DNA of 64,000 nt, from contig JWZX01003364.1 in the NCBI GenBank assembly GCA_001275005.1, positions 1-64,000 of the forward strand, given 5' to 3'. Position 1 is the first letter of the stretch. The number at the start of each line of letters is the position of its first letter. Origin of the DNA: Chrysochromulina tobinii (taxonomy: Eukaryota > Haptophyta > Prymnesiales > Chrysochromulinaceae). Shown here one piece after another: positions 2,659 through 32,853 of this stretch. Under the pieces are notes generated by a model. It was not told the DNA's origin and made no database searches. It was given only the letters and a program-made list of their open reading frames with translations. A program made the translations under genes and the position numbers.

Positions 2659-4770
2659 CCCCTGAGCACGATGAGTATGCTGAGCCCACTGGGCATGAAG
2701 AGGATGCTGAGCATGATGAGCATGCTCAGTCTGAGCATGATGAGCATGCTCAGTCTGCTGGGCACGATGAGCTTGCTGAGCTTGGTGAGCTTGAGCACGC
2801 TGAGCTTGATGAGCTTGCTGATCCTGCAGAGCACGCTGAGCACGCTGCAGCAATGTTGGCGGTGCACGATGAGCATGCTGAGCACGCGCGATGTCAATGA
2901 GCTTGCTGAGCACACTGAGCACGATGAGGATTAGATGAGGATGCTGAGCACAATGAGCATGCTGAGCCTGCTGAGCTCAATGAGGCTGCTGAGCACAGTG
3001 AGCATGCCGAGCCTGCTGAGCTTGCTGAGCTTGCTGAGCTTGATGAGCTTGATGAGCATGATGAGGATGCTGAGCTCGCTGAGCATTCTGAGGATGCTGA
3101 GCCAGATGAGCAGGTTGAGCAGGCTGAGCCCGCCGAGCACGATGAGGATGCTGAACCTGCTGAGTATGCTGAGGATGCTGAGCCCGATGAGCAGGTTAAG
3201 TAGGCTGAGCTCACTGAGCTCGCTGAGCTTGCTGAGCAGGCTGGGCACGCACCGACCGCCGAGCACGCTGCAGCGATGGCAGGGATGATGAGCCTGCTGA
3301 GCACAATGAGCTTGCTGAGCCCGCTGAGCATGATGAGGATGCTGAGCGCGCTGAGCATGATGAGGATGCTGAGCCCGATGAGCAGGTTAAGCAGGCTGAG
3401 CGGGCAGAGCTCGCTGAGCTTGCTGAGCAAGCTGGGCGTGCACCAAGCACGCTGCAGCAATCCCGGTGATGATGAGCCTGCTGAGCACAATGAGCTTGCT
3501 GAGCCCGCTGAGCACCATGAGGATGCTAAGCCCGCTGAGCATGATGAGGATGCTGAGCCCGATGAGCAGGCTGAGCAGGCTGAGCATAGGCTGAGCAGGC
3601 TGAGCAGGCTGAGCTTGCTGAGCTTGATGGGCGCGCACCAAGCACGCTGCAGAGATCCCAGTGATGATGAGCCCGCTGAGCACAATGAGCTTGCTGAGCC
3701 CGCTGAGCATGATGAGGATACTGAGCGCGCTGAGCATGATGAGGATGCTGAGCTCAATGAGCGGGTTGAGCAGGCTGAGCGGGCAGAGCTCGCTGAGCTT
3801 GCTGAGCAAGCTGGGCGCGCACCAAGCACGCTGCAGCAATCCCGGTGATGATGAGCCTGCTGAGCACAATGAGCTTGCTGAGCCCGCTGAGCACCATGAG
3901 GATGCTAAGCCCGCTGAGCATGATGAGGATGCTGAGCCCGATGAGCAAGTTGAGCAGGCTGAGCATAGGCTGAGCAGGCTGAGCTTGCTGAGCTTGCTGA
4001 GCTTGATGGGCACGCACCAAGCATGCTGCAGTGTTCGCGGTGATGATGAGCCCGCTGAGCACAATGAGCTTGCTGAGCCCGCTGAGCATGATGAGGATAC
4101 TGAGCGCACTGAGCATGCTGAGGATGATGAGCTCAATGAGCGGGTTGAGCAGGCTGAGCAGGCTGAGCAGGCTGAGCAGGCTGAGGAGGCTGAGTTTGCT
4201 CAGCATGCTGGGCACGCGCCGAGCATGCTGCAGAGATGGCAGTGATGATGAGCCCGCTGAGCACAATGAGCTTGCTGAGCCCGCTGAGCATGATGAGGAT
4301 ACTGAGCGCGCTGAGAATGATGAGGATGCTGAGCCCGATGAGCAGGCTGAGCAGGCTGAGCATGGACTGAGCAGGCTGAGCTTGCTGAGCTTGCTGAGCT
4401 TGCTGAGCACGCCGGGCACGCACCGAGCACTCTGCAGTGATGGCGCTTATGATGAGCCTGCTGAGCACGATGAGCTTGCTGAGCCCGCTGAGCATGATGA
4501 GGATGCTGAGATCGCTGAGCATGATGAGGATGCTGAGCCAGATGAGCAGGTTGAGCGGGCTGAGCAGGCTGAGCAGGCTGGGCTTGCTCAGCATGCTGGG
4601 CACGCACTGAGCACGCTGCAGCACAATAAGGATGCTGAGCTAGCTGAGCACAATAAGGATGCTGTGCAAACTGAGAACAATCAGGATTATTAGCCCTACG
4701 AGCATGCTGATTTTGCCGAGCACGCTTAACTGAGCTTGCTGAGCCTGCTGAGCCTGCTGAGCAAGCTAAG
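2659..4770 (+). repeat. 9-bp-based satellite, forward half
   Basis: Nearly pure array of 9-bp units of the form GCTGAGCNN or GATGAGNNN. A higher-order period of about 180-205 bp is marked by segments resembling CACGCTGCAGCAATCCCGG (near 2850, 3268, 3449, 3648, 3828, 4023, 4227, 4433 and 4616). Because the unit is a multiple of three and lacks stop codons, several frames stay open for hundreds of codons on both strands (for example AEHDEDAEP or MSLLSPLS patterns). I do not call these genes. Confidence 0.9.
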
Positions 4771-7250
4771 CTCATTGTGCTCAGCGGGCTCATCATCACC
4801 GCGATCGCTGCAGCGTGCTCGGCGCGTGCCCAGCGTGCTCAGCGTTCTCAGCGTGCTCAGCCTGCTCAGCCTGCTCAGCCTGCTTGCTCAGCCTGCTCAT
4901 TGAGCTAATCATCCTCAGCATGCTCAGCGGGCTCAGCATCCTCGATTGCTACAGCATGCTCGGCGCGTGCCCAGCTTCCTCAGCAAGCTCAGCCTGCTCA
5001 GCCTGCTCAGCCTGCTCAGCCTGCTCAGCCTGCTCGACCTGCTAGTTGAGCTCACCATCATCCTCAGCATGTTCAGCGGGCTCAGCATCCTCATAATGCT
5101 CAGCAGGTTCAGCAAGCTCATCGTGCTCAACAGGCTCATCATCACCGCCATCGCTGCAGCGTGCTCAGCGCGTGCCCAGCGTGCTCAGCAAGCTCAGCGA
5201 GCTCAGCAGGCTCAGCTTGCTCAACCTGCTCATTGAGCTCATCATCCTCATCATGCTCAGTGGGCTCAGTATCCTCATCATGCTCAGCAGGCTCATTCAG
5301 CATCCTCATCGTGCTCAACGCACAGCGGGCTCATCATCCATTGCCAACACATCGACACAACGTGCTCAGCGTGCTCCTCAGGCTGAGCAAGCTCAAAAAG
5401 CCCAGGAAGCTCAGCCTGCTCAGCGTGCTCAGCCTGCTCATTGAGCTCATCATCCTCAGCATGCTTAGCGGGCTCAGTATCCTCATCATGCTCAGCGGGC
5501 TCAGCAAGCTCATTGTGCACAGCGGGCTCATCATCACTGCCATCGCTGCAGCATGCTCGGCGCGTGCCCAGCATGCTGAGCAAGCTCAGCCTGCTTAGCC
5601 TGCTCAGCCTGCTCAGCCTGCTCAGCCTGCTCAACCCGCTCATCGAGCTCATCATCCTCAGCATGCTCAGCGTGCTCAGCATCCTCATCATGCTCAGCGA
5701 GCACGCCGCAGCGATGTTGGCGATGATGATCCCACTAAGCACTATGAGCATGCTGAGCCCCCTGAGCATAATGAGCTTGCTGAACCTGCTGAGCATGAGT
5801 GGGAGGATGAGCCTAATGAGCATGCTGGGCTTGCTGAGCTTGCTGAGCTTCCTGGGCTTGCTGAGCTTGCTGAGCCTGTAGAGCACGCTGCGGCGATGTT
5901 GGCAATGATGAGCTTCATGTGCTCCGGCGCGTGCCCAGGGTGCTCAGCAAGCTCAGCAAGCTCAACAAGCTCATCCTGCTCAACCTGCTTATCAGGCTCA
6001 TCATCCTTATCATTCTCGGCGCCCTCAGCATCCTCATCATGCTCAGCGGGCTCAGCAAGCTCATCGTGCTCAGCGGGCTCATCATCACCTCCATCACTGC
6101 AGTGTGCTCGGCGCGTGCCCAGCGTGCTCAGCAAGCTCAGCGAGCTCAGCAAGCTCAGCCTGCTTAACCAGCTCACCAGGCTCATCATCCTCAGCATGCT
6201 CAGCGCGCTGAGCATCCTCATCATGCTCAGCTGGCTCAGCAAGCTCATCGTGCTCAGCAGGCTCATCATCACCGCGATCGCTGCAGCGTGCTCAGCGTGT
6301 GCCCAGCGTGCTCAGCGTGCTCAGCGAGCTCAGCCTGCTCAGCCTGCTCAACCTGCTCATCTGGCCCAGCATGCTCAGCTAGCTCAGCTAGCTCATGGTG
6401 CTCAGCGGGCTCAGTATGCTAATTGTGCTCGGCATGCTCATCATCGGCAACAATGCCGCATCGTGCTCAGCATGCTCAGCAGGCTCAGCATGCTCAGCAA
6501 GCTCAGCAAGCTCAGCAGGCTTGGCATGCTCTCTGTGCTCAGCATCCTCATTGAGCTCAGCAGGCTCAACCTGCTCATCTGGCTCAGCATGCTCAGCATG
6601 CTCAGCGCGCTCAGCTAGCTCATGGTGCTCAGCGGGCTCAGTATGCTCATCATCGGCAACAATGCCGCATCGTGCTCAGCGTGCTCAGCAGGCTCAGCAT
6701 GCTCAGCAAGCTCAGCAAGCTCAGCAGGCTCGGCATGCACACTGTGCTCAGCAGCCTCATTGAGCTTAGCAGGCTCAGCATGCTCATTGTGCTCAGCATC
6801 CTCATCCAATCCTCATCGTGCTCAGTGTGCTCAGCAAGCTCATTGACATCGTGCTCAGCATGCTCATCGTGCACTGTCAACATTGCTGCAGCGTGCTCAG
6901 CGTGCTCTGCAGGATCAGCAAGCTCATCAAGCTCAGCGTGCTCAAGCTCAGCAAGCTCATCGTGCTCAGCAGACTGAGCATGCTCATCATGCTCAGCATC
7001 CTCTTCATGCCCAGTGGGCTCAGCATCCTCATCGTGCTCAGCCGGCTCAGCATGCTCATCGTGCTCAGCCGGCTCATCATTGCCAACATCGCTCAGCATT
7101 CTCAGCTTGCTCAGCAGGCTCATCAAGCTCAGCAAGCTCAGCGTGCTCAGCAGGCTCAGCATGCTCATTGTGCTCAGCATCCTCATCGTGCTCAGTGAGC
7201 TCAAGTCGGAACGATATAACATATATGTGCTGCCTTGCACAATACTCAAA
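4771..7250 (-). repeat. 9-bp-based satellite, inverted half
   Basis: The same satellite as at 2659-4770 but on the opposite strand (TGCTCAGC-rich), so the two halves could fold back on each other around a turn at about 4690-4770. The outer parts (6820-7060) match the outer part of the forward half (2660-2930) specifically, not only by the 9-bp unit. A patch at about 5700-5925 has reverted to the forward orientation. Confidence 0.88.
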
Positions 7251-9900: not shown

Positions 9901-12249
9901 TCACACGATGAGACGGACGAGCCGTAGTTCCTTCTGAGAGCACTGGAGCAGCTCGGTGGCCTGTGGGGAAACGGACGCGGGCGCCGTGGTGAGCACCTGA
10001 GCAGCTCGGTGGCCTGCTTGACGGAGCGTATGAGCTCCCCTTCGATGAGGAGGTAATCAGTGGCACTCGGTGGCAATCATGCTCGCTCGCCTGCTTGACG
10101 GAGCGTATGAGCTCCCCTTCGATGAGAAGGAGAGTATCACCGATGGCGAGGCCGGCGGCCGCTGCAGCGCTTCCTGCGGCGACCGCGCTCACGACGGCGC
10201 CGAGGCCGATCTCGTTGAGGGCACGGACCTGATGAGGGAGGCAATCAGCATACACTCAGAGGAGCTCACGACGGCGCCGAGGCCTGGCTCTCTGAGCGCC
10301 ATGGTGAGCGCACACACCTCGAGTCCGTGGTTCAGAGCGCCGTCCTGAGCGCCATGCGGCGTCTTGAGCGTCGTCTTGAGCGTAACGGCCGCGGCGATCC
10401 TTCGAAAGACGACGCTCACTGTGACGAAACTCAGATCATCGACGAGGGCGACTGCATGCGCATGCGAAGTGGGCACCTGATGAGGGACGCAATCATTGGC
10501 ACTCAGTGGCAATCATCGACGAGGGCGATTGCATGCGCATCAATGATCATCAGTGGCCATTAGTGGCCATCAGTGGTCATCAGTGGTCACCGTGCCGTTG
10601 ACGGAGAGGAGCAGCCAGCCCGGGCACAGCCCGCGCCCCTCGCCCTGCGAGCCAGCGCTCCAACCGGCGACGAGCACGCCGCCCGAGGTCCCGACCGGTG
10701 CGCACCTGATGAGGGACGCAATCAGACGCACTCAGACGCACTCAGACGCACTCAGTCGCAATCAGCCGCCCGAGATCCCAACCGGTGCGCACGTGATGCC
10801 GATGCGCCCATCACGGCGCTCGAAGACTTCGCGCACACTCGAGGCGAGCACCGTGAGCGAGATCGTCTCCTTGGCCTTGACGCACCTGTGGGGAAGCGGA
10901 CGCGGGCGCCGTGGTGAGCAATGCATGCAGGGTAGAGGCTCATGGCGCCGTATTGAGCACATGCAATCAGAGGTGCAATCACGCCGCGCGGACGCACCGG
11001 CTGATCTCTCGCGAGGCCTGCTCGTGATGAGGGAGGCAATCAGCATGCAATCAGAGGTGCAATCACGCCGCGTGGACGCACCGGCTGATCTCTCGCGAGG
11101 CCTGCTCGTGACTCCCTTCGGCCACCGCCTTGCCGTTGATGCGCACCTGTGGGGAACGGACGAGATGGCGCCGTGGTGAGCACGTGCATGCAGGGCTCGG
11201 CCTTGCCGTTGCTACTCACGAGGACATCGCCCACGAGGACGCCGGCGCGCTCCGCACGTCCCCCCGGCTTGAGGCTGAAGACGAATACCCCGACGGCCCC
11301 ACCCAATGAAGGGTCGGAGAAGGGGGGGGGCACGTCCCCCCACACGATCCCCACAGGCCCCTCGCTGACCTGATGAGGGAGGCAATCAGCATGCAATCAG
11401 AGGTGAGGGGGGCACGTCCCCCCACACGATCCCCACAGGCCCCTCGCTGACCTCCATCCTGAGCTCGCGTAGCCCGAGGGTCCCGGCGCCGGCGTGGGCG
11501 CCGCCGCCGCCGCTGCTGCCGACGCCCACGCCGGCGCCCACGACGACGCCCTCATGGGCGGCGCTCGTTTTCGGGTTCGGGTTGCTGCTGCTGCTGCCGC
11601 TGCTGCCGCTGCTGCTCTTGCCGAACCCAAAGAGGCCGCCGAGGATGCTGCGACCGCCGCCGCCGCCGGCGCCGGCGGCGGCGCGTGTCGTGGTCGGTTC
11701 GCTGCTTTCGTTGCTGTCGCTGTGTGAGGCGGGCGGCGGCGGTGAGTCGACTGTGAAGACCTGTGAGTCGACTGTGAAGACCAGCAGCTCCGGTTTCGTG
11801 GTCGGCTTGGCGGGCGGGCTGCTCTTGAGCATATTCGGCGTGTAGAGGGGCGGGCCATTTGGCGAACGCGGGGACGCGGCCATCGAAAACTCCTCCTCGT
11901 CCGACGACAGCGCGTTCGCGATGCCCTCGACGACGTCATCGCCTCGTGCACGAGATCCATACGACTGCTGCTGCTGCTGCTTGTAGGCAGCGCCGCCGAC
12001 GGCCGATGCCTTCGCCGCTGAGCCGGTAGCTGTGCTGCCGCCACTGCTGCTCGACGCTGACAGGGAGCTTTTGTTGGGTGTGCTGGCAGTCATGGAGTTG
12101 GGTGTGCTGGCGGTACTAGTAGACAGGGGTTTCTTGACAGGGGTGCTCAGGTTTGAGATGGACGCCGGTCCGTCCAGATTATCATCGCTGTCGTCGCCGT
12201 CGAGCACATCGCCGAAATCCCGCGCAGCTGCGGTGACGATCCGCGCCAT
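9901..12249 (-). CDS. Three-PDZ-domain scaffold protein, eight exons
   Basis: Proposed exons: 12249-11452, 11369-11220, 11146-11082, 10885-10793, 10705-10591, 10476-10318, 10228-10091 and 9960-9901. They sum to 1578 nt (525 residues) with no internal stop and with phases that all agree. Residues 1-265 are a Ser/Ala/Gly-rich disordered region. PDZ1 contains VGIVWG, GVFVFSLKPGG and GDVLVRINGKAV, followed by ISLTVLAS. PDZ2 contains IGITCAPVGTSGGV and GWLLLSVNGT. PDZ3 contains IGLGAVVSAVAAGSAAAAAG and GDTLLLIEGELIRSV and ends KELRLVRLIV. PDZ domains bind C-terminal peptides, so a cytoplasmic scaffold role is expected; partners are unknown. Every intron lies inside a PDZ coding region or at its edge. 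Six of seven acceptors are AG|GT. The seventh intron (10090-9961) appears to use a GC donor or to be two nested introns. Confidence 0.8.
9961..11451 (-). repeat. PDZ-gene introns flanked by exon-derived direct repeats
   Basis: Seven introns: 11451-11370 (82 nt), 11219-11147 (73), 11081-10886 (196), 10792-10706 (87), 10590-10477 (114), 10317-10229 (89) and 10090-9961 (130). The first repeats about 46 nt of the next exon almost perfectly (GTCAGCGAGGGGCCTGTGG onward). The second, fourth and sixth start with degraded copies of the next exon. The third and seventh contain a copy of the preceding exon end, and the fifth contains a copy of an internal exon stretch. Introns 1, 4, 5 and 6 end in TGATTGCSTCCCTCATCAG; introns 2, 3 and 7 end in a CACCACGGCGCC...CCCCACAG tail. 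Confidence 0.85.
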
Positions 12250-19900: not shown

Positions 19901-20270
19901 ACGCGTGCTCAGCACGGCGCGTGCGGCGCTGGGCCCTAATGTGGAATCGATGCTGATGCTCGAGGCCGTCGACGCCCGGCTCCGGTGTGCGGAGGGCGGA
20001 GGGCTCTGATGGCCTCTGATGGCCTCTGATGGCCTCTGATGGCCTCTGACTGCCTCTGATGGCCTCAGATGACCTCTGATTGCCTAAGATGACTTCTGAT
20101 GACCTCTGATTGCCTCCCTCATCAGGTGTGCGGAGGGTGGAGGGCTCGAGCCGCTCGAATTGGCCCTCGAGCGCATGCGCACCGTCCTCGGGCCGCAGCA
20201 CCCGGAGACACGGCGGTGCGCGGCAGCTCTTGCGCAGGAGCAAGAGGCTGCTGTTGCTGCAAGTGATTAG
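16959..20270 (+). CDS. TIR-like/tetratricopeptide (kinesin-light-chain-type) protein, three exons
   Basis: Exons 16959-18953, 19110-19984 and 20126-20270 give 3015 nt (1004 residues); the reading frame is kept at both joins. I use the ATG at 16959, since the frame upstream has only TTG/GTG codons. The N-terminal third is charged and helical (EEHKKKLESDEQKTTR...FKQEQAAGFKSEYEKYKQKH). Residues about 330-520 have TTFFSYSWDG, RYVWIDIFAASQ, ELLLYCSPLT and RAWCMFEVVKALAKGA, the pattern of the TIR-like domain that precedes TPRs in many protist proteins. From about residue 565, tandem 42-residue units (LxRLLQNLGKHLEAAPMLRE, ...HPDTLVSMNNLGRLL) match TPR_12/kinesin light chain repeats. The last exon supplies ERMRTVLGPQHPETRRCAAA and the stop. 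Probably a protein-interaction or signalling protein; TIR catalysis is unproven. Confidence 0.8.
18954..19109 (+). repeat. TPR-gene intron 1 with internal duplication of the exon end and donor
   Basis: 156 nt, GT...CCCCCCAG, a multiple of three without stops, so it also reads as protein. Inside it (from about 19020) ATGCTGAAGGACCCGGTGAG copies the preceding exon end plus donor site at 18937-18957. The surrounding GATTGCCATGG units are repeated. Confidence 0.75.
19985..20125 (+). repeat. TPR-gene intron 2, exon-copy plus (TGATGGCCTC)n filler
   Basis: 141 nt. The first 23 nt (GTGTGCGGAGGGCGGAGGGC...) copy the start of the next exon at 20126 with one difference. The middle is a run of CTCTGATGGC units. 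The end is TGATTGCCTCCCTCATCAG. Splicing removes one copy and leaves the protein frame intact. Confidence 0.9.
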
Positions 20271-20622: not shown

Positions 20623-21972
20623 ATGGCATTCAGCTTGCTTGGGGCATCCACATTAGCTCGCCGAAGAAGCGACCCTCGACTGCAGCTGTGGTCAACGCCC
20701 AAGTTGTTGCCGCCGCCGAGGCCGCCGACACCACCGCCACCCCCTCCGCCTCCGCCGCCACCACGCATCGCACCGCCGCCGCCGCCGCCGCCGTTTGACG
20801 AGTTCACCCTGCGCGACCTGCTCAAGCGCACGGGAGCTGACGGTAAGAGTTGGCACAAGCGACGTACGCGCGATTATTTTATGGAGTGGGACGTGGACGG
20901 TTCCGGCGCGATCGACGCGTGATGAGTTCTTCGACGCCATCTATAAACTCGGCGTGACGTACGTGTCGGAGGCCGACCTCGAGCGAACGTTCAACTTCTT
21001 TGATGTCGACGGCTCCGGTCACATCGATTACAAGGAGCTGGATCGAAGGCTGCTCCAGGTTTGATGGCCGGCCTCTGATGACCTCTGATGGCCTCTGATG
21101 ATCTCTGATGGCCTCTGATGCCCTCTGATGCCCTCTGATGGCCTCCGAAGGCCTCTCTGGTCGCTGACGTTCACACTTTGCGTCGCGACTGCCCACAGCT
21201 TCCGAGCCATCGCCCGCCTCCTCCCAGATCGCCGCCACCTCCGCCCGACCCCGGAGCACCCCCGCCGCCGCCCACGCCGCCCACGCCGTTCCGCCGGGTC
21301 CGTGCACGCCCTTCGCGCGTACGAGGTGTGAATGGGGGCGTACGAGGTGTGAATGGGGGCGTACGTGTGAATGGGCCCGACTCGAGCCTTTCCTTATTAG
21401 GCATGTCGAATGGCACTTCGCCCTCGAGGCTTGCGCTTGGGTCGCAGATGCATGCAGCCAGGCCGCAGGACGCCACCGCGGGCATGTGGTACGCAGTAGC
21501 CAAGCAGATGCTCGACGACACCAAGACCCAAAATAGGAAGGTGCATTGGATCCAGCAGCCTTCTTTGCATGCTTCCCTGCAGCCTTCTTTGCATGCTTCC
21601 CTGCCGCCTTCCTGGCATGACCCCTGGGGACAAGGCCACAATCTCGACTACAATCTCGGTTACAATCTCGGCTACAATATGGGCGGCTATCCTGCTGGGG
21701 CGCATCTGGGCGGCTATCTCGGTCACAATCTCGGCTACAACTTCCCACCGCACATCGCCGCTCCGGGCGCATTGCCTAATTGGGGTGGCCCCTCACACCT
21801 TCCTATTTTGGGTTATCCACCAGAGGGCCCTCCGCCACCACGACCGCCCTTGACGACGCCACCCCGGCGCCCTCCCAGGCGAGAAGGTGATGATCGGGCT
21901 CCGATGCTGCATATCTCTTGGTCGACTGGCCGTCTCCCCGGCCGTGGCGATACATCGCGACTTGTCTTGTGA
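20623..21972 (+). CDS. EF-hand protein with Pro-rich and Gly-Tyr-repeat tail; one frameshift
   Basis: Start ATG at 20623. A poly-Pro run is followed by FDEFTLRDLLKRTGADGKSW and EF-hand 1 (DVDGSGAID). The frame then breaks at 20914-20919, where one extra base turns the expected ...GAIDRDEFF into a TGA stop. In the next frame, EF-hand 1 is completed and EF-hand 2 (DVDGSGHIDYKEL) follows. Both loops have Asp at 1, 3 and 5-type positions and Glu/Leu-Asp at the end, as in calcium-binding loops. An intron (21059-21198) with CTCTGATGGCC repeats joins in phase to a tail with PPPP runs, GVNGG repeats, LHASLxPS repeats and NLGYNLGYN repeats. The tail probably gives a disordered or structural protein. 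The frameshift is a real lesion, a sequencing error, or marks an unseen splice. Confidence 0.6.
21059..21198 (+). repeat. EF-hand-gene intron with CTCTGATGGC repeats
   Basis: 140 nt, GT...CTGCCCACAG. The 5' half is about nine units of GGCCTCTGATG or GACCTCTGATG, the same filler as in the TPR and recombinase gene introns. The 3' end lacks the CCTCATCAG tail. Confidence 0.8.
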
Positions 21973-22112: not shown

Positions 22113-24487
22113 ATGGCAGAAACCAGCCCCGTCGCGCAGCCGTTTGCCGACGACGTGACCGTCGAGGAGCTTGCAGCACGGCCGAAGCAGCCGAGGGCGC
22201 CGCGCAAAGAGTCGAGCGAGGACGCGTACGCAACCTCGGCGAACAAATGGTGGCCGAAGTTCCTTAAAGCGGCCGGCTGGGATGGCACTGAGAAGGGCGT
22301 CTTCATTGGCGCCGCGGGCGACCCGATCGACGGCACCTTCCGCCAGCTGTTCATCTGGCTCTACGAGCAGGACGGCATGACCAAGAGCATCTACAAGACG
22401 ATGCTCGCGTGGGCACAAGCAAGGCTCAACAAGCAGCGTGCGGATCGTCTGCTGGCTCCGATGCCCGAATACGTGTGCAACCTGCCGGGTGTCAAGGAGC
22501 GCAAGCAGGAGCTCTACACCGGCGCGCGCGAGTCGCACATGGAGCACATGACCGACCTCCAAGCGGCCATCGAGGCGGACATCGGCTTCGATTTGATGAT
22601 CGAGATGGTCGAGCTGTGCTTGAACTGCGCGGTAAGAGTGTGCCAGATTACCTCTGATGATCTCTCTCTGACGAGCTCCGACCCCCTCTGATTGCCTCTG
22701 ATGATCTCTGATGACCTCTGATGACCACGGATGACCTCTGATGATAGCCTCTGATGACCACTGATGACCTCTGATGTACCTCTGATGGCCTCTGATTGCC
22801 TTCTGATGACCTCGGATGACATCCCTCATTCAGGTGACCGAACACCTCGCCGCTCTTCAGCTTGCAGATCCTCTTTAGAGCTCCGCGCCACCCACCAGCA
22901 GGGCGCCCGGCACGACGACCTTCGCGACGAGGTCTTCGCGTTCATGTTCTCGCGCATCACCAAGACAGTCGGCTCGTCCGGCATGCCAATGCTCGCGAAC
23001 GTGACCGACGGCGGGAAGACGAACCAAAACGGCCGGATCTCCTACTCAGCCTTGCTCCCGCACCGCAACCCGGTGCTGTGCACGATCTTCGCGAAGGGCG
23101 CGCTCTTCTTGCACCGTTTCCTGATCATGAAGGTCACGTTCCCCGATCTCCTCGAGCCGAAGGATATCTTCAAACGCCCGACGCTCCGTCAGGGCCACGA
23201 CGAGATGCACGGCGTCTCGTACGACTCCTCCTACAGCATCATGAAGCGCCTCTACGAGGCTGTAGGCGCAGTGCCCACCAAGTGCTTGCACCAGGGCCGA
23301 GGCGAGTGCCAACGAGTCCTCGACGATCTCGGTGTCGACCTCGACCAGATTCGGCGGTTGTGCAAGTACGTGCACGACGAGCAGACGGAGTCGTACCTCC
23401 TCAACCCGCCGATGTCGGCGCTGCTCGCGGCCGCCGGCTTCGACCATCAAGCCCCTCGGGCTGCGCACGCCGCGCACCTGAGCATTCGAGTCACAGAGGA
23501 GCTCGTCACCGCACTGCTGCCCCAGCTCATCGCGGCACAGGCACAGGTCGAGGCCCAGTTCAAGACCGTGACCACTGGTGCAGAGGCGAAGGCGAAGCGC
23601 CTCTTCTGTGCACGCGGCTGCGGGCGGGCACTGCGGCTGATCGTCGAGGTCTTCATTGCATGCTCGGCGGCACGGGCGCGTACGGAGGACGGCCACATCC
23701 GAATGGACACCGAGCCCATCTACAAGAGATTCTTCGCCAAGAACCGCTTGTTCCAGCTGCCCTTCTTCTCGAGCCAGGTCTTCCTTGACTTTGCTGGGCT
23801 GGTCGCTGCAGCTGAGGTGCGCGAGCACGCTGGGGCAGTAGAGCCAGATGCAGAAGAGGCTGCTGGGCTCGGGATGTCGCCCGTCGCCGCACGGCTCGAC
23901 ATCGTGATTTCACGCAGGCTGGCCCCTCTCCAAGCCGATATTCAGGCACTCCTCGGCACCGTCAGCCAGGCTGGCCCAGCCACAGCCGCGCAGGCAGTGA
24001 TGCCGCTGCCTTCTCTCGAGCCCAAACGGAAGCGGAAGACCGCCGAGGAGAGCGCAGCTGCTCAGGCGGCCAAGCGCGGTCCGGCGGGCATCCCCACGTA
24101 CGTGCTCGCGCCAAACAAGGAGACCGTCGCGCGCCTCTGGGAGGAGTACACGACGGGCTTGAACGGTGGGCCTGCCGTTCGCGACCTGGTTCGCGACCAC
24201 GGGCAGGAAGTGGCGCCCGCCTGGGGGATGCCGGCCGCGCGCTCTGGAGGTGGCACTCATATGTATATGAGGAGATCGAGCGTCGCATGAAGGCCGGGGA
24301 GTCTGAGGTAGACGCACTAGCAGCGGTGCAGGCGCGGCTTGATTTGCTTGCTAAGCCCAAGCGCGCCGCAGGGAGAGGTAAGCCAGCCAGCCCTGCCAAC
24401 TGGAAGGGACTCGTTAGGGAGCTGCATGCAGCGCATCCGCGTCGTGTCGAGGACGAGCGTGTCGAGGACGAGGAGGCCGATGTGTGA
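22113..24487 (+). pseudogene. Crypton-like tyrosine recombinase (Ndc10-type core plus GCR1_C), frameshifted near the end
   Basis: Exon 1 22113-22631 (173 codons, ATG at 22113) and exon 2 from about 22881. Exon 2 has the core seen in Crypton/Ndc10-type proteins: ANVTDGGKTNQNGRISYSAL, LLPHRNPVLCTIFAKGALF and FKRPTLRQGHDE. It then has PTKCLHQGRGECQR (a candidate catalytic H-x-x-R) and, 35 residues after the His, TESYLLNPP with a candidate Tyr nucleophile. The C-terminus VLAPNKETVARLWEEYTTGL is the GCR1_C DNA-binding motif. At 24180-24245 the frame slips; LWRWHSYVYEEIERRMKAGE and the rest continue in another frame to the TGA at 24485-24487, while the first frame stops at 24290. A Crypton-derived mobile element is the best reading; the tail lesion suggests it is decayed or recently broken. 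The acceptor at 22880 is uncertain (22833 is the alternative). Confidence 0.68.
22632..22880 (+). repeat. Recombinase-gene intron with CTCTGATG repeats
   Basis: Begins GTAAGAGTGTG, then repeats of GACCTCTGATG and GGCCTCTGATTGCC, then GATGACATCCCTCATTCAG at 22815-22833, a variant of the tail found in the TPR and PDZ introns. Using the AG at 22833 brings a stop after 14 codons, so I place the acceptor at 22880; this is not certain. Confidence 0.6.
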
Positions 24488-27657: not shown

Positions 27658-29043
27658 ATGATGCTAAGCAAGCGCCTCTCGACGCCGCTCGCGAGCGCGG
27701 AAGTCTTCTTCGACGCCTCTCGGGCAACGCCGCAGGACGTCTCCTGGCGCGGCCAGCGGCTGCTCAAGCAGCGCAGTCCGAGGCTGCTGGCGCTACCAAG
27801 CGGGCCGCCGCATGCCTCGCAGGCGCTCGTCGCGGAGCTCGACAAGCGCACAGAGGACGAGATCATGCAGGCGCTCCTCGACAACGACCTCAACACGACC
27901 ACGTTCATCGACTACCTGCAGCAGTCGGCGCTCGGCTCGCCCGCGCGCCTGCTGCCGTGGCTGCAGACACTCGCGGCGCTCACCTCTAAAGTAGGGCTGC
28001 TGCTCGAGTCGACACGCTTCCTATGCAGCGACCTGCAGCTCGCGCGTATCCTGCTGCACATGCAGCTATCCGCCAAGTCGATCTGCGGCGCCAAGCGCGC
28101 CGCCACCTTCCTTGTGCAGCACGAGACGGGCACGCTGCACCGGGTGGGAGATCGCGGCGAGATCCTTAAGCGGCACGAGGGCGGCGTGCCCGAGCCCATC
28201 TCCACAGGCACCTCTTTTGCCGCCCATTGCGCGCGCTCACGCCACCCGCTGCTCATCGGGGTGCCTGGCTCGGCCGAGCGCGCCTCGCTTGGCTTCAACG
28301 TCGACTCGGGCACGGGCTCGCGTCCGGAGACGTCGTTATGCGTCCCATGCTTGGATCATGTGGGGAGAGTGCTCGCGGTGATCCAGGTGATGGCCGCTGA
28401 TGGCCTCTGACGACACCCTTGATTGCCTCCATCATCATGTGGGGAGAGTGCTCGCGGTGATCCAGGTGATGGCCGCTGATGGCCTCTGACGACACCCTTG
28501 ATTGCCTCCATCATCATGTGGGAAGAGTGCTCGCGGTGATCCAGGTGATGGCCGCTGATGACCACTGATTGCCTCGAAGTATCCTAGAGTGCCTCTGATT
28601 GTATCGGGGTGTCCTAGAGTGCCTCTGATTGCCTCGAAGTGCCTCGAAGTGCCTGTGGGAATGCCTCGGACTGCCCTTCACAGTGCCTCGGACTGCCCTT
28701 CACAGTGCCTCGGACTGCCCTTCACAGTGCCTCGGAGCGCCCGAGAGCGTGCAGCTCACTCACGCACTCGCTGCTCACGCTGCTACAGGTGAATGACAAG
28801 CTGCATGGGATGGGTAGTTTCGGGCGTGACGATCTCGCTCTCCTCCAACGGTTTGCTGTCCAATGTGGGATTTCGCTGCGGAATGCGGGCAGCAGTGCTT
28901 CCTTCCAGTCGGCGTCCCCCACAGTTGGCCCGTTCACAGTTGGCCCGTCCTTCACAGTTGGCCCGTCGGCTTCCACAGCAGTGCTTCCTTCCACAGTTGG
29001 CCCGTCGGGCGCCGTCCTCTCCCCACAATTCGGTCCGAAGAGT

Positions 29044-29079
<36 letters not shown>

Positions 29080-29979
29080 TCACAAGACCGCGCGGGACGC
29101 AGCAGCAGCCCCAAAAATTCCCACAGCCCAGAGGCTCCACTAGGCTCGTCTCGCCGGTCGCGTCACAAGCAGCGCACTGAGGACGTGGGGCTTCAGTGCA
29201 ATCTCCTCAACGCGCCGCCGCTGAACAAGCTCAAGAAGGACCACGAGTTGACGAAGCACGAGCGACGGCCCGGCGGCGGCGGCGCAAATGACGGGGCTAG
29301 CGCTAATGACGGGGCTAATGACGCGGATGACGGGGCTAATGACGCGGCCACACACCTCGTCGTCCACCAACGGTATCAGGAATCCGTCTCCGCGGCCGCT
29401 GATTGCCGCTGATTGCCTCTGACGACACCCTTGATTGCCTCCATCATCAGGTATCAGGAATCCGTCTCCGCGGCCGCTGATTGCCGCTGATTGCCTCTGA
29501 CGACACCCTTGATTGCATCCATCATCAGGTATCAGGAATCCGTCTCCGCGGCCGCGGCGAGAGCACAGGCGAGCGTCCTGGACGCTCATCACGGCGCTCA
29601 CGCCCACAACGACGCGCGCGCGCGGCCTCTAGACGTATCGAGGATGTCGGGGGATCGGGGGGTCGCGATGACGCCTCGGGCAGCTCGCTTGATTGAGGAC
29701 AGCATGCCTTCCGACCCCGCAGGAAGGCATGGCTTCTGTGCCGCACGAGCCACCGCCGAGGACGCCGCACGCGCCGCGACCGCAGCTCCTGTGGACGCCG
29801 CAAATGCCGCCGCCGTCGCCGCCACGGACGCCATCGACGAATCTCACGGCCGGAGATCGGCACGGAGATCGCAGGGAGGTGTCGAGGCGTGCAGGGCACG
29901 GGACGGGCGGCTCGCCGGGACGGCGCGACCCCGACGATCCCGATCACGATGCCGCCATGTCGGTGGTCGGGAAGGCTAG
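27658..29979 (+). CDS. GAF-domain protein with disordered C-terminal region, three exons
   Basis: Exons 27658-28386, 28789-29372 and 29529-29979 sum to 1764 nt (587 residues), with consistent phases. The GAF domain occupies about residues 120-290: ATFLVQHETGTLHRVGDRGE, ISTGTSFAAHCARS, TSLCVPCLDHVGRVLAVIQV and, across the first splice, NDKLHGMGSFGRDDLALLQR. GAF domains bind cyclic nucleotides or other small ligands and often sit in phosphodiesterases, phytochromes or kinases. No catalytic domain follows here. The rest is Ala/Ser/Pro-rich, with TVGPS repeats (15 bp), an Ala run and a NDGAND repeat. The N-terminal 100 residues have helix-forming composition. The ligand is unknown. Confidence 0.75.
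28387..28788 (+). repeat. GAF-gene intron 1: 79-bp exon-tail/donor duplication and 22-bp repeats
   Basis: A 79-bp unit starting at 28355, 28434 and 28513 (third partial) contains the last 32 nt of exon 1, the CAG|GTGATGG donor and a TTGATTGCCTCCATCATC filler. Three equivalent donors therefore lie at 28387, 28466 and 28545. The later ones would shift the frame by one base each. Near the 3' end TGCCTCGGACTGCCCTTCAC occurs three times at a 22-bp period (28680-28735), with a degenerate unit on either side. Confidence 0.85.
29373..29528 (+). repeat. GAF-gene intron 2: two back-to-back 78-bp intron units
   Basis: Units 29373-29450 and 29451-29528, each starting GTATCAGGAATCCGTCTCC and ending GATTGCMTCCATCATCAG. 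The next exon at 29529 begins with the same 27 bases. Joined CAG|GTATCAG sites make three possible AG|GT junctions. Confidence 0.9.
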
Positions 29980-30513: not shown

Positions 30514-32853
30514 ATGAAGCGACGTCGGGTCGGCGGCGGCGGTGACAGGGGCGGCGGCGACGTCATCGGCTATGTCGGCGACGACGGCGATGTGAGGGTG
30601 CGAAGCGCCGAAGGCGAGGTGGTCGCGTGGTCCCGTTTGGCCGCGGCGCGATCGGCGGCGCTCGCCAACTGGGTGAGCGACACGGGCGGCGCCGAGGGGG
30701 CGTTCGCAACTCTGGTGCCTGCGGCTGCGCTCCGCACGCTCTCGCGCGTCGCCGAGGGCGGTGCGGAGGATGGCGGGGCGCTGGAGGGGTGCTCGCTCGC
30801 GCAGCTCGCGCAGCTGTTGCACGGCGCGCACTTTCTCGACGTGGACGTCGAGCTTCTGCGACTCCTCTCGCGTTCCCTGTGCACCGGCCACCTCGCCGGC
30901 AAGAGTGGCCCGGAGCTCGGGCGGCTGCTGGGCGTCGTAAGCGACTTCCCCACCGAGGCGGAGCGGCAGGCGGCGACGGAGGAGCCGCTGTACACGCAAG
31001 ACGCTCAGCACGACGCCACTGCACCGCGAGCGGCCGACGCACCCACACCGCCAGCGCCCGTGTGCTGGCTCTCGACGCAGCTCGTCAACGAGGACGCCCT
31101 CGAGGACGCCCTCGCGGACGCTGACGTTCCGACGCTGCGCGCGCTCAAGGGCGTGAGCCTCGCGTGGCGCGCGCGGGCGCGGCGCGTCCTGTGCACGCGG
31201 CTGTGCGCACGCATCGGCCTGCCGCTCACGAGCAACCTCGTCGAGGTGACCGAGCTCGACCTCTCGGACAGCCGCACCACCGGTCGCCTCATCGCCGACG
31301 CGGTCGACGCATCGCGCGGGCTGCCCAACCTGGCAAAGGTGACGGGGCTGGGCGGCTTCGAGGTGGACGTGGCCGCGCTGAGGCGCGTGGCGTCTTCGGA
31401 TGTATCGGAAGAATATGAAGATGGTACGCAACCGTATCCGATGGCAGGGGTGCGCGCGTGCATCCGCGGCGAGGGCGAGGCGTCGATGGAAGTGCTGCTC
31501 GCCGCGTGCATGCTGCGCGACGGTGAGGCGCACGTGCCGGTGAACGCGTTCTTCGGGGACACGTCGATGACGTCGATGGCGCTGCCCGCAGGCCTCACCA
31601 GCATCGGTAGGAGCGCCTTCGATTGCTGCTCCTCGATGACATCGATCCAGCTGCCCGCCGGCCTCATGAGCATCAGTGAGTACGCCTTCGCTAACTGCTC
31701 CTCGATGACGTCGATCGCGCTGCCCGCCAGCCTCACGAGGCTCGGTGGGGGCGCCTTCTATGGCTGCTCCTTGTTGACGTCAATCGCGCTGCCCGCTGGC
31801 CTCATGAGCATTGGTGTGAACGCCTTCTACAGCTGCTCCTCGTTGACGTCGATCGAGCTGCCCGCCAGCCTCACGAGCATCGGTGAGCGCGGCTTTTCTG
31901 GCTGCTCCTCGATGACATCGATCCAGCTGCCCGCCGGCCTCACGAGCATCAGTGAGAGCGCCTTCGAGGACTGCTCCTCGTTGACGTCAATCGCGCTGCC
32001 CGCCAGCCTCACGAGCCTCGGTGGGGGCGCCTTCCGTGGCTGCTCCTCGATGACGTCGATCGCGCTGCCCGCCAGCCTCACAAGCATCGGTGAGCGCGCC
32101 TTTTCTGGCTGTTCCTCGTTGACGTCGATCCAGCTGCCCGCCGGCCTCACGAGCCTCAGTGAGTACGCCTTCGAGGACTGCTCCTCGATGACGTCGATCG
32201 CGCTGCCCGCCGGCCTCATGAGCATCGGTGAGGGCGTCTTCTGGGGCTGCTCCTCGTTGACGTTGATCGCGCTGCCCGCCTGCCTCACGAGCCTCGGTGG
32301 GAGCGCCTTCTCTGGCTGCTCCTCGATGACGTTGATCGAACTGCCCGCCGGCCTCACAAGCCTTGGTGTGTTTGCCTTCGCTGGCTGCTCCTCGTTGACG
32401 TCGATTGCACTGCCCGCTGGCCTCACGAGCCTCCGTGGTTATGCCTTTGATGGCTGCTCCTCGTTGACTTCGATCGAGCTGCCCGCCGGCCTCACTAGCC
32501 TCGGTGTGGGCGCCTTTCGTGGCTGCTCCTCAATAACGTCGATTGCGCTGCCCGCCGGCCTCACAAGCCTCGGTGTGTTCGCCTTCGCTGGCTGCTCCTC
32601 GTTGACATCGATCAAGCTGCCCGCTGGCCTCACGAGCCTTGGTAATGGTGCCTTCTATCGCTGCTCCTCGTTGACGTCGATCGAGCTGCCTGCCGGCCTC
32701 ACGAGCCTTGGTGATTATGCCTTCGATGGCTGCTCCTCGTTGACATCGATCGAGCTGCCCGCCGGCCTCACGAGCATCGGTGATCATGCCTTCCATGGCT
32801 GCTCCTTTGTCGTTGATCGAGATGCCTGGAGAGCTTTGATGACAGCACTCTGA
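30514..32853 (+). CDS. Skp1-like N-terminus fused to 18 BspA-type leucine-rich repeats
   Basis: 779 residues, ATG at 30514. Residues about 20-150 resemble Skp1/POZ: an S-x2-L-like strand, then AQLLHGAHFLDVDVELLRLL and TGHLAGKSGPELGRLLGV followed by FPTEAERQA, like the Skp1 dimerisation/F-box-binding helices. Residues 195-300 are an unassigned helical region. From about 345, eighteen near-identical 23-residue repeats (SSLTSIELPAGLTSLGxxAF) match LRR_5/BspA repeats. The 69-bp repeat is highly uniform at DNA level (31560-32815), suggesting recent expansion or conversion. BspA LRRs mediate binding; a substrate-receptor role in ubiquitin ligation is a speculation from the Skp1-like part. No signal peptide, so intracellular. 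Confidence 0.75.
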   Translation: MKRRRVGGGGDRGGGDVIGYVGDDGDVRVRSAEGEVVAWSRLAAARSAALANWVSDTGGAEGAFATLVPAAALRTLSRVAEGGAEDGGALEGCSLAQLAQLLHGAHFLDVDVELLRLLSRSLCTGHLAGKSGPELGRLLGVVSDFPTEAERQAATEEPLYTQDAQHDATAPRAADAPTPPAPVCWLSTQLVNEDALEDALADADVPTLRALKGVSLAWRARARRVLCTRLCARIGLPLTSNLVEVTELDLSDSRTTGRLIADAVDASRGLPNLAKVTGLGGFEVDVAALRRVASSDVSEEYEDGTQPYPMAGVRACIRGEGEASMEVLLAACMLRDGEAHVPVNAFFGDTSMTSMALPAGLTSIGRSAFDCCSSMTSIQLPAGLMSISEYAFANCSSMTSIALPASLTRLGGGAFYGCSLLTSIALPAGLMSIGVNAFYSCSSLTSIELPASLTSIGERGFSGCSSMTSIQLPAGLTSISESAFEDCSSLTSIALPASLTSLGGGAFRGCSSMTSIALPASLTSIGERAFSGCSSLTSIQLPAGLTSLSEYAFEDCSSMTSIALPAGLMSIGEGVFWGCSSLTLIALPACLTSLGGSAFSGCSSMTLIELPAGLTSLGVFAFAGCSSLTSIALPAGLTSLRGYAFDGCSSLTSIELPAGLTSLGVGAFRGCSSITSIALPAGLTSLGVFAFAGCSSLTSIKLPAGLTSLGNGAFYRCSSLTSIELPAGLTSLGDYAFDGCSSLTSIELPAGLTSIGDHAFHGCSFVVDRDAWRALMTAL

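Follow-up and report, generated by a model that had tools for sequence, protein, structure and literature searches.

Among the intron-making elements described so far, those closest to the inserts reported here are introners, and some of the earlier-known families are given duplications of 3 to 9 bp in the accessible part of Gozashti 2022 (PMC9860276). That account describes the introners of Symbiodinium microadriaticum as carrying their acceptor, obtaining their donor from a 4-bp target duplication, and bearing terminal inverted repeats; the present inserts likewise have an element-borne acceptor and a donor from duplicated target, but the duplicated piece is variable and 15 to 46 nt long, no constant terminal repeat was noticed, and only the 3' part is common to the copies. 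In the same account, the introners of Chrysochromulina sp. (a genus of the same name) are also devoid of terminal inverted repeats but are opposite in polarity, with a 4-bp duplication, a carried 5' splice site, and a co-opted 3' one. Direct repeats of 3 to 5 nt are reported for the introners of Amoebophrya (PMC7789003) and repeats of 4 to 30 bp near the borders of 213 introns in a 2025 survey (PMC11782384), and target duplications are not mentioned for those of Micromonas (PMC3879977), in each case in the accessible portion of the source. New introns of Daphnia pulex, in the portion of PMC4202315 available, resemble those described here in their exon-derived direct repeats at the opposite intron end, internal repeats, and inferred staggered cuts; their repeats measure 4 to 12 bp, and a genome-wide insert family is not described for Daphnia there. 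In tandem genomic duplication of an AGGT site (accessible sections of PMC3443670), an exon is likewise duplicated and the GT of the copy becomes the donor, but a common filler is lacking and both ends should show AGGT, whereas here AG precedes 24 of 66 inserts. Within the open-access literature, as far as its accessible descriptions extend, we encountered duplications of this length in none of the introner families described, and the long, variable copied piece sets the present family apart from the described intron-making elements found there.

The window, that is, the whole 64,000-nt stretch of DNA analyzed, encodes on its minus strand a PDZ protein (ATG at 12249, stop at 9901) with eight predicted exons and seven predicted introns. 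As the preliminary description had it, excision of the seven segments, whose junctions (Table 1) were set by hand following that description, leaves 1,578 nt encoding 525 aa with 0 internal stops, and three stretches of this product match Pfam PDZ (whole-protein E = 1.1e-20). The predicted splice borders are of the GT-AG type in six introns and GC-AG in one (intron 7). P0121, a 466-aa relative from environmental sequence whose record may be of either DNA or transcript origin, is 49% identical over 98% of residues 255 to 525, and its alignment spans all seven junctions. From the restoration of the frame, we infer that the segments are spliced. Exon 1 additionally contains a 21-nt tandem duplication (11742-11782; VFTVDS twice) that is single in another relative, P0123, and represents a small coding polymorphism.

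Table 1. Coordinates in the window of the PDZ gene, its predicted introns, and further copies of the inserts (D, copied target; F, filler)
Feature	Coordinates	Strand	Composition or basis
PDZ gene, ATG to stop, 525-aa product	9901..12249	-	Frame restoration, P0121 alignment, Pfam PDZ
Intron 1, 82 nt, GT-AG	11370..11451	-	D copy 11407-11451; filler F with family 3' end 11370-11406
Exon 2 segment duplicated in intron 1	11325..11369	-	Target D, 45 nt identical
Intron 2, 73 nt	11147..11219	-	D copy 11193-11219 (21/27), then family B filler ending CCCCACAG
Intron 3, 196 nt, composite	10886..11081	-	Family A array ~11025-11065; previous-exon-end repeat plus array; two family B-like units, last ending CCCCACAG
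Intron 4, 87 nt	10706..10792	-	D copy 10765-10792 (26/28), 10-nt array, CCCTCATCAG
Intron 5, 114 nt	10477..10590	-	D copy 10512-10540 (28/29) behind 10-nt repeat 10538-10589; filler ends CCCTCATCAG
Intron 6, 89 nt	10229..10317	-	Decayed D copy 10264-10299 (30/36); filler ends CCCTCATCAG
Intron 7, 130 nt, GC-AG	9961..10090	-	Family A-like insert with previous-exon copy 10004-10053, then family B filler 9961-9995
Independent family A intron at end of TPR open frame	19985..20125	+	D copy 19985-20006, ~eleven 10-nt units, TGATTGCCTCCCTCATCAG, D again from 20126
Tandem units, 79-nt period	28355..28568	+	With TGATTGCCTCCATCATCA
Tandem D-F units, 78-nt period	29372..29555	+	2.4 copies, 99% match, ending TGATTGC(C/A)TCCATCATCAG|GTATCAGG

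Each PDZ intron was aligned locally with 60 nt of each flanking exon, with 1,000 mononucleotide shuffles per comparison. Intron 1 had been said to open with a near copy of exon 2, and this was borne out (50/53, with 0 shuffles as good; the first 45 nt are exactly those of exon 2), as were the degraded copies of the next exon in introns 2, 4, and 6 (21/27, 26/28, and 30/36, with shuffle fractions of 0.001, 0, and 0, respectively). The copies of adjacent exon sequence attributed to introns 3, 5, and 7 proved to be of the previous exon in intron 3 (30/30), of the next exon in intron 5 (28/29, the copy sitting 50 nt into the intron, after a 10-nt repeat), and of both in intron 7 (52/61 for the previous and 37/51 for the next), with no shuffle as good in any of these comparisons; intron 6 also matched its previous exon (27/35; shuffle fraction, 0.001). 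Matches were not significant between intron 3 and its next exon (31/46; shuffle fraction, 0.286) or between introns 1, 2, 4, and 5 and their previous exons (1.0, 0.164, 0.658, and 1.0, respectively). Thus, the alignment of introns to their flanking exons that the preliminary description called for recovers a significant exon copy in all seven introns, and at the level of sequence the observation is confirmed and is larger than first noted. Its further claim that duplicated coding DNA supplies the donor GT, with the original GT following the acceptor, needs correction for intron 7, in which the donor is GC and the acceptor is followed by GCC. This GC donor, the filler family, and the local copying of fillers (below) go beyond what the preliminary description contained. 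Intron 3 involves a 68-nt direct repeat with a spacing of 84 nt that includes the end of the preceding exon, and in intron 7 a 26-nt direct repeat (92%; 9938-9963 and 9991-10016) borders the family B filler on both sides.

In the typical layout of these inserts, the upstream exon is followed by a copy (D) of the next 15 to 46 nt, by a filler (F) composed mostly of an array of 10- to 11-nt units around TGATTGC or TGATGAC and then CCCTCATCAG, and by D again; in some fillers, additional bases that we cannot account for separate D from the array. The period of 10 to 11 nt, seen in the arrays at 10538-10769, 20004-20116, 21070-21156, and 22685-22820, is about one turn of DNA, which may be coincidental or may reflect constraints from nucleosomes or slippage. 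A search of the 53.15-Mb assembly (2,253 contigs) recovered 1,827 copies of the 12-mer CCCTCATCAGGT, against 2 of its reversed control, and 792 copies of the 21-mer TGATTGCNTCCCTCATCAGGT, against 0. At 184 of the 215 distinct sites with GATTGC.TCCCTCAT, the sequence continues as CAG, the remainder being CAA or CAC (12 sites), TGC (9 sites), and other triplets (10 sites). The 3' end of the family is not absolute, since 136 genomic copies of TGATTGCNTCCCTCATCA lack the following G (that is, they end in CTCATCA and then a base other than G); in 146 copies, CAG is followed by a base other than G. The copies lacking the final G lie partly in regular arrays with a spacing of 57 to 68 nt (e.g., C358:2579-2768 and C1617:41835-42055), which are probably tandem D-F units within introns or outside genes. 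Family B, ending in CCCCACAG, forms the acceptor side of PDZ introns 2, 3, and 7; its 12-mer CGTTCCCCACAG has 50 genomic copies against 6 of the reversed control and the strict pattern occurs in a single genomic place, in the PDZ gene, which points to a small or diverged family. The exact family A motif had no match in viral contigs and one in bacterial and archaeal genomes, in a Lachnospiraceae MAG, which by our own estimate is about the chance level for an exact match of 20 bases in 257 billion bases. A search of the 64-kb window against Rfam returned no match at gathering scores.

We then sampled 126 sequences (354,896 bases), comprising the window and 125 loci, some of them overlapping and 14 of them fetched for PDZ or reverse transcriptase (RT) matches, from which 226 distinct CCCTCATCAG sites with enough flank were taken. 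An anchored upstream copy of the following bases was present at 125 of the 226 sites, against 28 of 1,130 mismatched controls in which upstream and downstream sequences were drawn from different loci. This anchored test replaced an earlier one whose control was inflated by further motif copies in the downstream windows (only 71/226 sites beat its 99th percentile); when the anchor was shifted by up to 8 bases, 77 to 125 of the 226 sites were still positive, a check that is uninformative because mismatches are tolerated. The 101 sites at which no copy of the next exon reached the threshold may, in our reading, be decayed or rearranged. Coincidence as the source of the family is ruled out by these controls (792 versus 0, 1,827 versus 2, and 125/226 versus 28/1130). 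The exon following the 125 copy-bearing sites starts with GT at 101 and with GC at 10, base counts that are biased because most loci were chosen through motifs containing GT. D-F-D insertions in which D starts with CA, CT, or TC after CAG were also seen (L040 4868 and 2783, L114 304, and L052 3679; minus-strand coordinates).

Removal of 59 sites with tandem motif copies or lengths outside 55 to 165 left 66 independent sites, at which the identity of the D copy is 0.32, 0.42, and 0.74 at positions -3, -2, and -1, rises to between 0.88 and 0.98 from position 0 through +17, and then declines slowly, reaching about 0.3 by +60. At 24 of these 66 sites, AG stands immediately before the insert, so the target need not be AGGT. 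A further 16 sites were set aside because F was <26 nt, a sign of tandemly repeated whole units, or because the length was >110. In the remaining 50, D measures 15 to 46 nt (median, 27), a minimum estimate since ungapped matches were used; gapped alignment often extends D as far as the array. F measures 29 to 84 nt and D+F 67 to 99 nt, the two parts being inversely related (Spearman, -0.75), with a standard deviation of D+F of 8.8 against 15.8 expected if D and F were independent. Each sampled copy is flanked by a D sequence of its own; the 5' part of each insert is a locus-specific D, and similarity does not reach both intron ends. By eye, the listed copies have no fixed 5' end or constant terminal inverted repeat, with CTGAT...ATCAG present in some. 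The copies with an established genic position are those of the PDZ and Lon genes.

The partial Lon protease locus (L056) provides a second example. Removal of seven hand-set GT-AG introns, each ending in CAG, yields 247 aa with 0 stops, against 22, 33, and 27 stops in the three frames of the unspliced sequence, and residues 3 to 247 of the spliced product match solved Lon proteins (5.7e-92). Two homologs examined offered no case of intron presence or absence. Three of the Lon introns have a common filler with TCTGATGATGACCTCTGATTGC and, ahead of it, all or part of (C)CGATTAC, and the 8-nt CCGATTAC is common to the filler at the D/F border and to the coding exon after one of these introns; it may be a tag from the D of that intron, insertion microhomology, or a diverged array unit. 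At 2121-2275 of L056 (minus-strand coordinates), two similar introns enclose a 23-nt exon; the upstream intron has the appearance of a tandem copy of this exon and the downstream intron, which would be a second route to a new intron. The Lon gene also illustrates that new inserts can adjoin older introns; array lengths vary, and whole D-F units are tandemly repeated in some introns as a secondary process. Such changes would explain the complex PDZ introns 3, 5, and 7, and the original insertion event is obscured by decay, by slippage of the arrays, and by tandem duplication of whole units. Repeats of other kinds in the window include about 4.5 kb of 9-mers (CTGAGCATG / CAGCGTGCT; 2662-7203), which have higher-order periods of 379 and 184 and opposite orientations on either side of ~4650-4811, and, within an open frame encoding a BspA-type leucine-rich repeat protein (31564-32826), about eighteen repeats of 69 nt.

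Presence and absence in close relatives date one of the PDZ introns. P0122 is 97% identical over the matched 25% of the query region, and P0123 is 95% identical over the matched 23%; in both, intron 2 is translated as coding sequence (in P0123 as VSSNGKAEPCMHVLTTAPSRPFPTGA), so that they appear to derive from unspliced DNA. At the protein level, both are unbroken across the site of intron 1, which, at 82 nt, is no multiple of three and must therefore be absent from them. Since these relatives lack intron 1 and have intron 2, intron 1 is a recent gain, the one case here, at the protein level, of an intron created where relatives have none. P0124 (label jgi/Chrpa1, Chrysochromulina_OHIO) matches the PDZ protein at 96% over the matched part and at 95% in a second alignment; we take Chrpa1 to denote C. 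parva and the host of the present family to be that haptophyte, a single-celled alga, or a close relative. P0124 is also unbroken at this site, though it may be a spliced model. The comparison with orthologs supports the proposal that introns were gained recently by insertion with a long target duplication, for which the anchored copies at the sampled sites also speak. The accompanying proposal of a relative age series stands insofar as intron 1 is younger than intron 2; the D alignments, at only ~30 nt, do not order the rest.

The fillers themselves point to nearby sources. The filler of intron 1 shares 35/35 nt with intron 3 of the same gene, the longest exact 3'-anchored match to it among the other 225 sampled sites being 31, and its 34-nt core occurs within the fetched sequence in introns 1 and 3 only (L059 repeats the same stretch of the window). 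P0123 has the start of intron 3 (...RPRGVIAPLIAC) and no intron 1, and the likely donor, intron 3, is therefore the older of the two. Across 77 nontandem introns, filler similarity was 0.50 within loci (41 same-locus pairs separated by 170 nt or more, nearer pairs having been dropped) against 0.39 between loci, a difference reached by 23 of 5,000 permutations; a cruder earlier test in which tandem copies were kept (60 same-locus pairs) did not reach significance (p = 0.12). When k-mers were used to look for exon tags in the fillers, array matches swamped the result; a refined version, in which a 9-mer was shared by 60 of 106 same-locus pairs and by 3,648 of 9,764 different-locus pairs, still counts motif words, and neither is taken as proof.

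Tentatively, and with slightly less than even confidence, we interpret the inserts as an introner-like family of mobile spliceosomal introns in which a 3'-anchored copy of the tail of an existing intron is inserted, with a target duplication of 15 to 46 nt, by target-primed copying of intron RNA. The inserted piece would be the 3' tail of the intron, namely, a variable number of 10- to 11-nt TGAT units followed by CCCTCATCAG. A nuclease would nick one strand just ahead of a GT; the freed 3' end would act as the primer for reverse transcription of an intron RNA, excised or still nascent and often from the same gene, beginning at the 3' terminus of that RNA; copying would halt at a variable point in the array; and cutting of the second strand 15 to 46 nt off, followed by fill-in, would yield both copies of D. 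Selection would retain inserts with clean splicing and a narrow range of lengths. In splicing, the GT at the start of D (consensus near GTGCG) would be the donor, the TGAT units would act as branch points, and the pyrimidine-rich CCTCCCTC together with ATCAG would act as the acceptor, and removal of D-F would join the upstream exon to the intact D without a scar.

Target-primed insertion of non-LTR retroelements is marked by a fixed 3' end, 5' truncation, and target duplications of variable length. The present inserts display the same three features, with a nearly fixed 3' end (184/215 CAG), a variable 5' end (F of 29 to 84 nt), and a D of variable length, as expected from target-primed reverse transcription of an intron 3' end; they differ in being intron-like and very short and in that no linked RT was found. 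The genome has 26 RVT_1 matches, 22 of them over the cutoff, and among six RT loci fetched, with one motif-like match (L085, minus strand), no RT could be tied to the family. The near-constant D+F is not predicted by target priming and probably reflects limits on intron length. Splicing selection alone could set the 3' end at AG and the start of D at GT, which confounds the evidence from the fixed 3' end. A more specific version, which we regard as possible but doubtful, is that these introns behave as very small retroposons: an intron RNA released beside its own gene would have its 3' end copied by target priming into a nearby exon, where a long staggered cut would supply the donor. If so, the introns of a gene would give rise to further introns in it, and the position of the new acceptor would be dictated by the exact 3' terminus of the intron RNA. 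Inserts in introns, intergenic DNA, or the antisense orientation that still end at CTCATCAG would favor an RNA template, and random ends would favor DNA templating.

The close rival is a DNA-only route, in which repair of an exon at a staggered break or a stalled fork involves a template switch to a nearby intron array (microhomology mediated or polymerase theta-like) and a return near the start, with D produced by fill-in of the stagger and selection keeping CAG directly before GT. The local similarity of the fillers (23/5000 permutations) speaks for it, since template switching would give local donors just as RNA released at its own gene would; microhomology is one reading of the CCGATTAC that a Lon exon shares with the filler at the D/F border, tandem units and slippage are both DNA processes present here, and the 136 genomic copies that end in CTCATCA and then a base other than G depart from a fixed end. 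Against this, the 3' end is nearly constant while the 5' end is variable, and no donor-exon bases were noticed after the AG. We rate the DNA-only route as a real though doubtful possibility and the RNA route as the most likely one, an edge rather than a proof.

The other explanations fare worse. The tandem duplication of an exon segment that creates a pair of AGGT splice sites, followed by minisatellite growth, with the common motif arising by convergence on the needs of branch point and acceptor, would account for the repeat-like arrays and for the sites at which whole D-F units are duplicated; however, the 792 copies of the 21-mer (0 reversed) exceed what splicing needs, introns 1 and 3 have 35/35 nt in common, and AG is absent before most inserts. 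This mechanism is improbable, and in its pure form we reject it, because the insert is not flanking exon alone and the filler belongs to a common family; the plain duplication of an AG|GT site with an unrelated filler, raised in the preliminary description, fails on the same repeated filler and on the AG found before only 24 of 66 introns. Introners of the conventional cut-and-paste (MITE-like) type, such as those of Micromonas or Aureococcus, would fit the high copy number and, by the accessible account of Symbiodinium (PMC9860276), the acceptor on the element and the donor from duplicated target; a D of 15 to 46 nt (n = 50), long and variable against the 3 to 9 bp given there, makes them very improbable, and largely on this variability, together with a 5' end that by eye is not fixed, such an element is rejected; terminal similarity seen by eye in the listed copies is confined to CTGAT/ATCAG. 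That the segments are in-frame or pseudogene repeats, an annotation artifact invited by hand-set junctions and splicing predicted from sequence, is scarcely credible given the PDZ frame, which is exactly restored and matches the protein of a relative, and the Lon gene, which goes from 22, 33, and 27 stops to none and matches Lon proteins along its length.

How introns come to be gained in large numbers is a long-standing question, and in the accessible descriptions the duplications made by introners are short (3 to 9 bp). The family recovered here suggests a different route, with mobility confined to the 3' part and the remainder contributed by a long duplication of host sequence. The filters of the PMC9860276 survey, as given in its accessible part, ask for similarity starting near both intron boundaries and remove low-complexity families; similarity in the present family does not begin near both, and these filters would tend to exclude it. 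More generally, with a locus-specific 5' part and a repetitive core, such inserts would tend to be missed by screens of this kind, and gains of this type may therefore be undercounted. Near-identical strains should carry many fresh insertion events.
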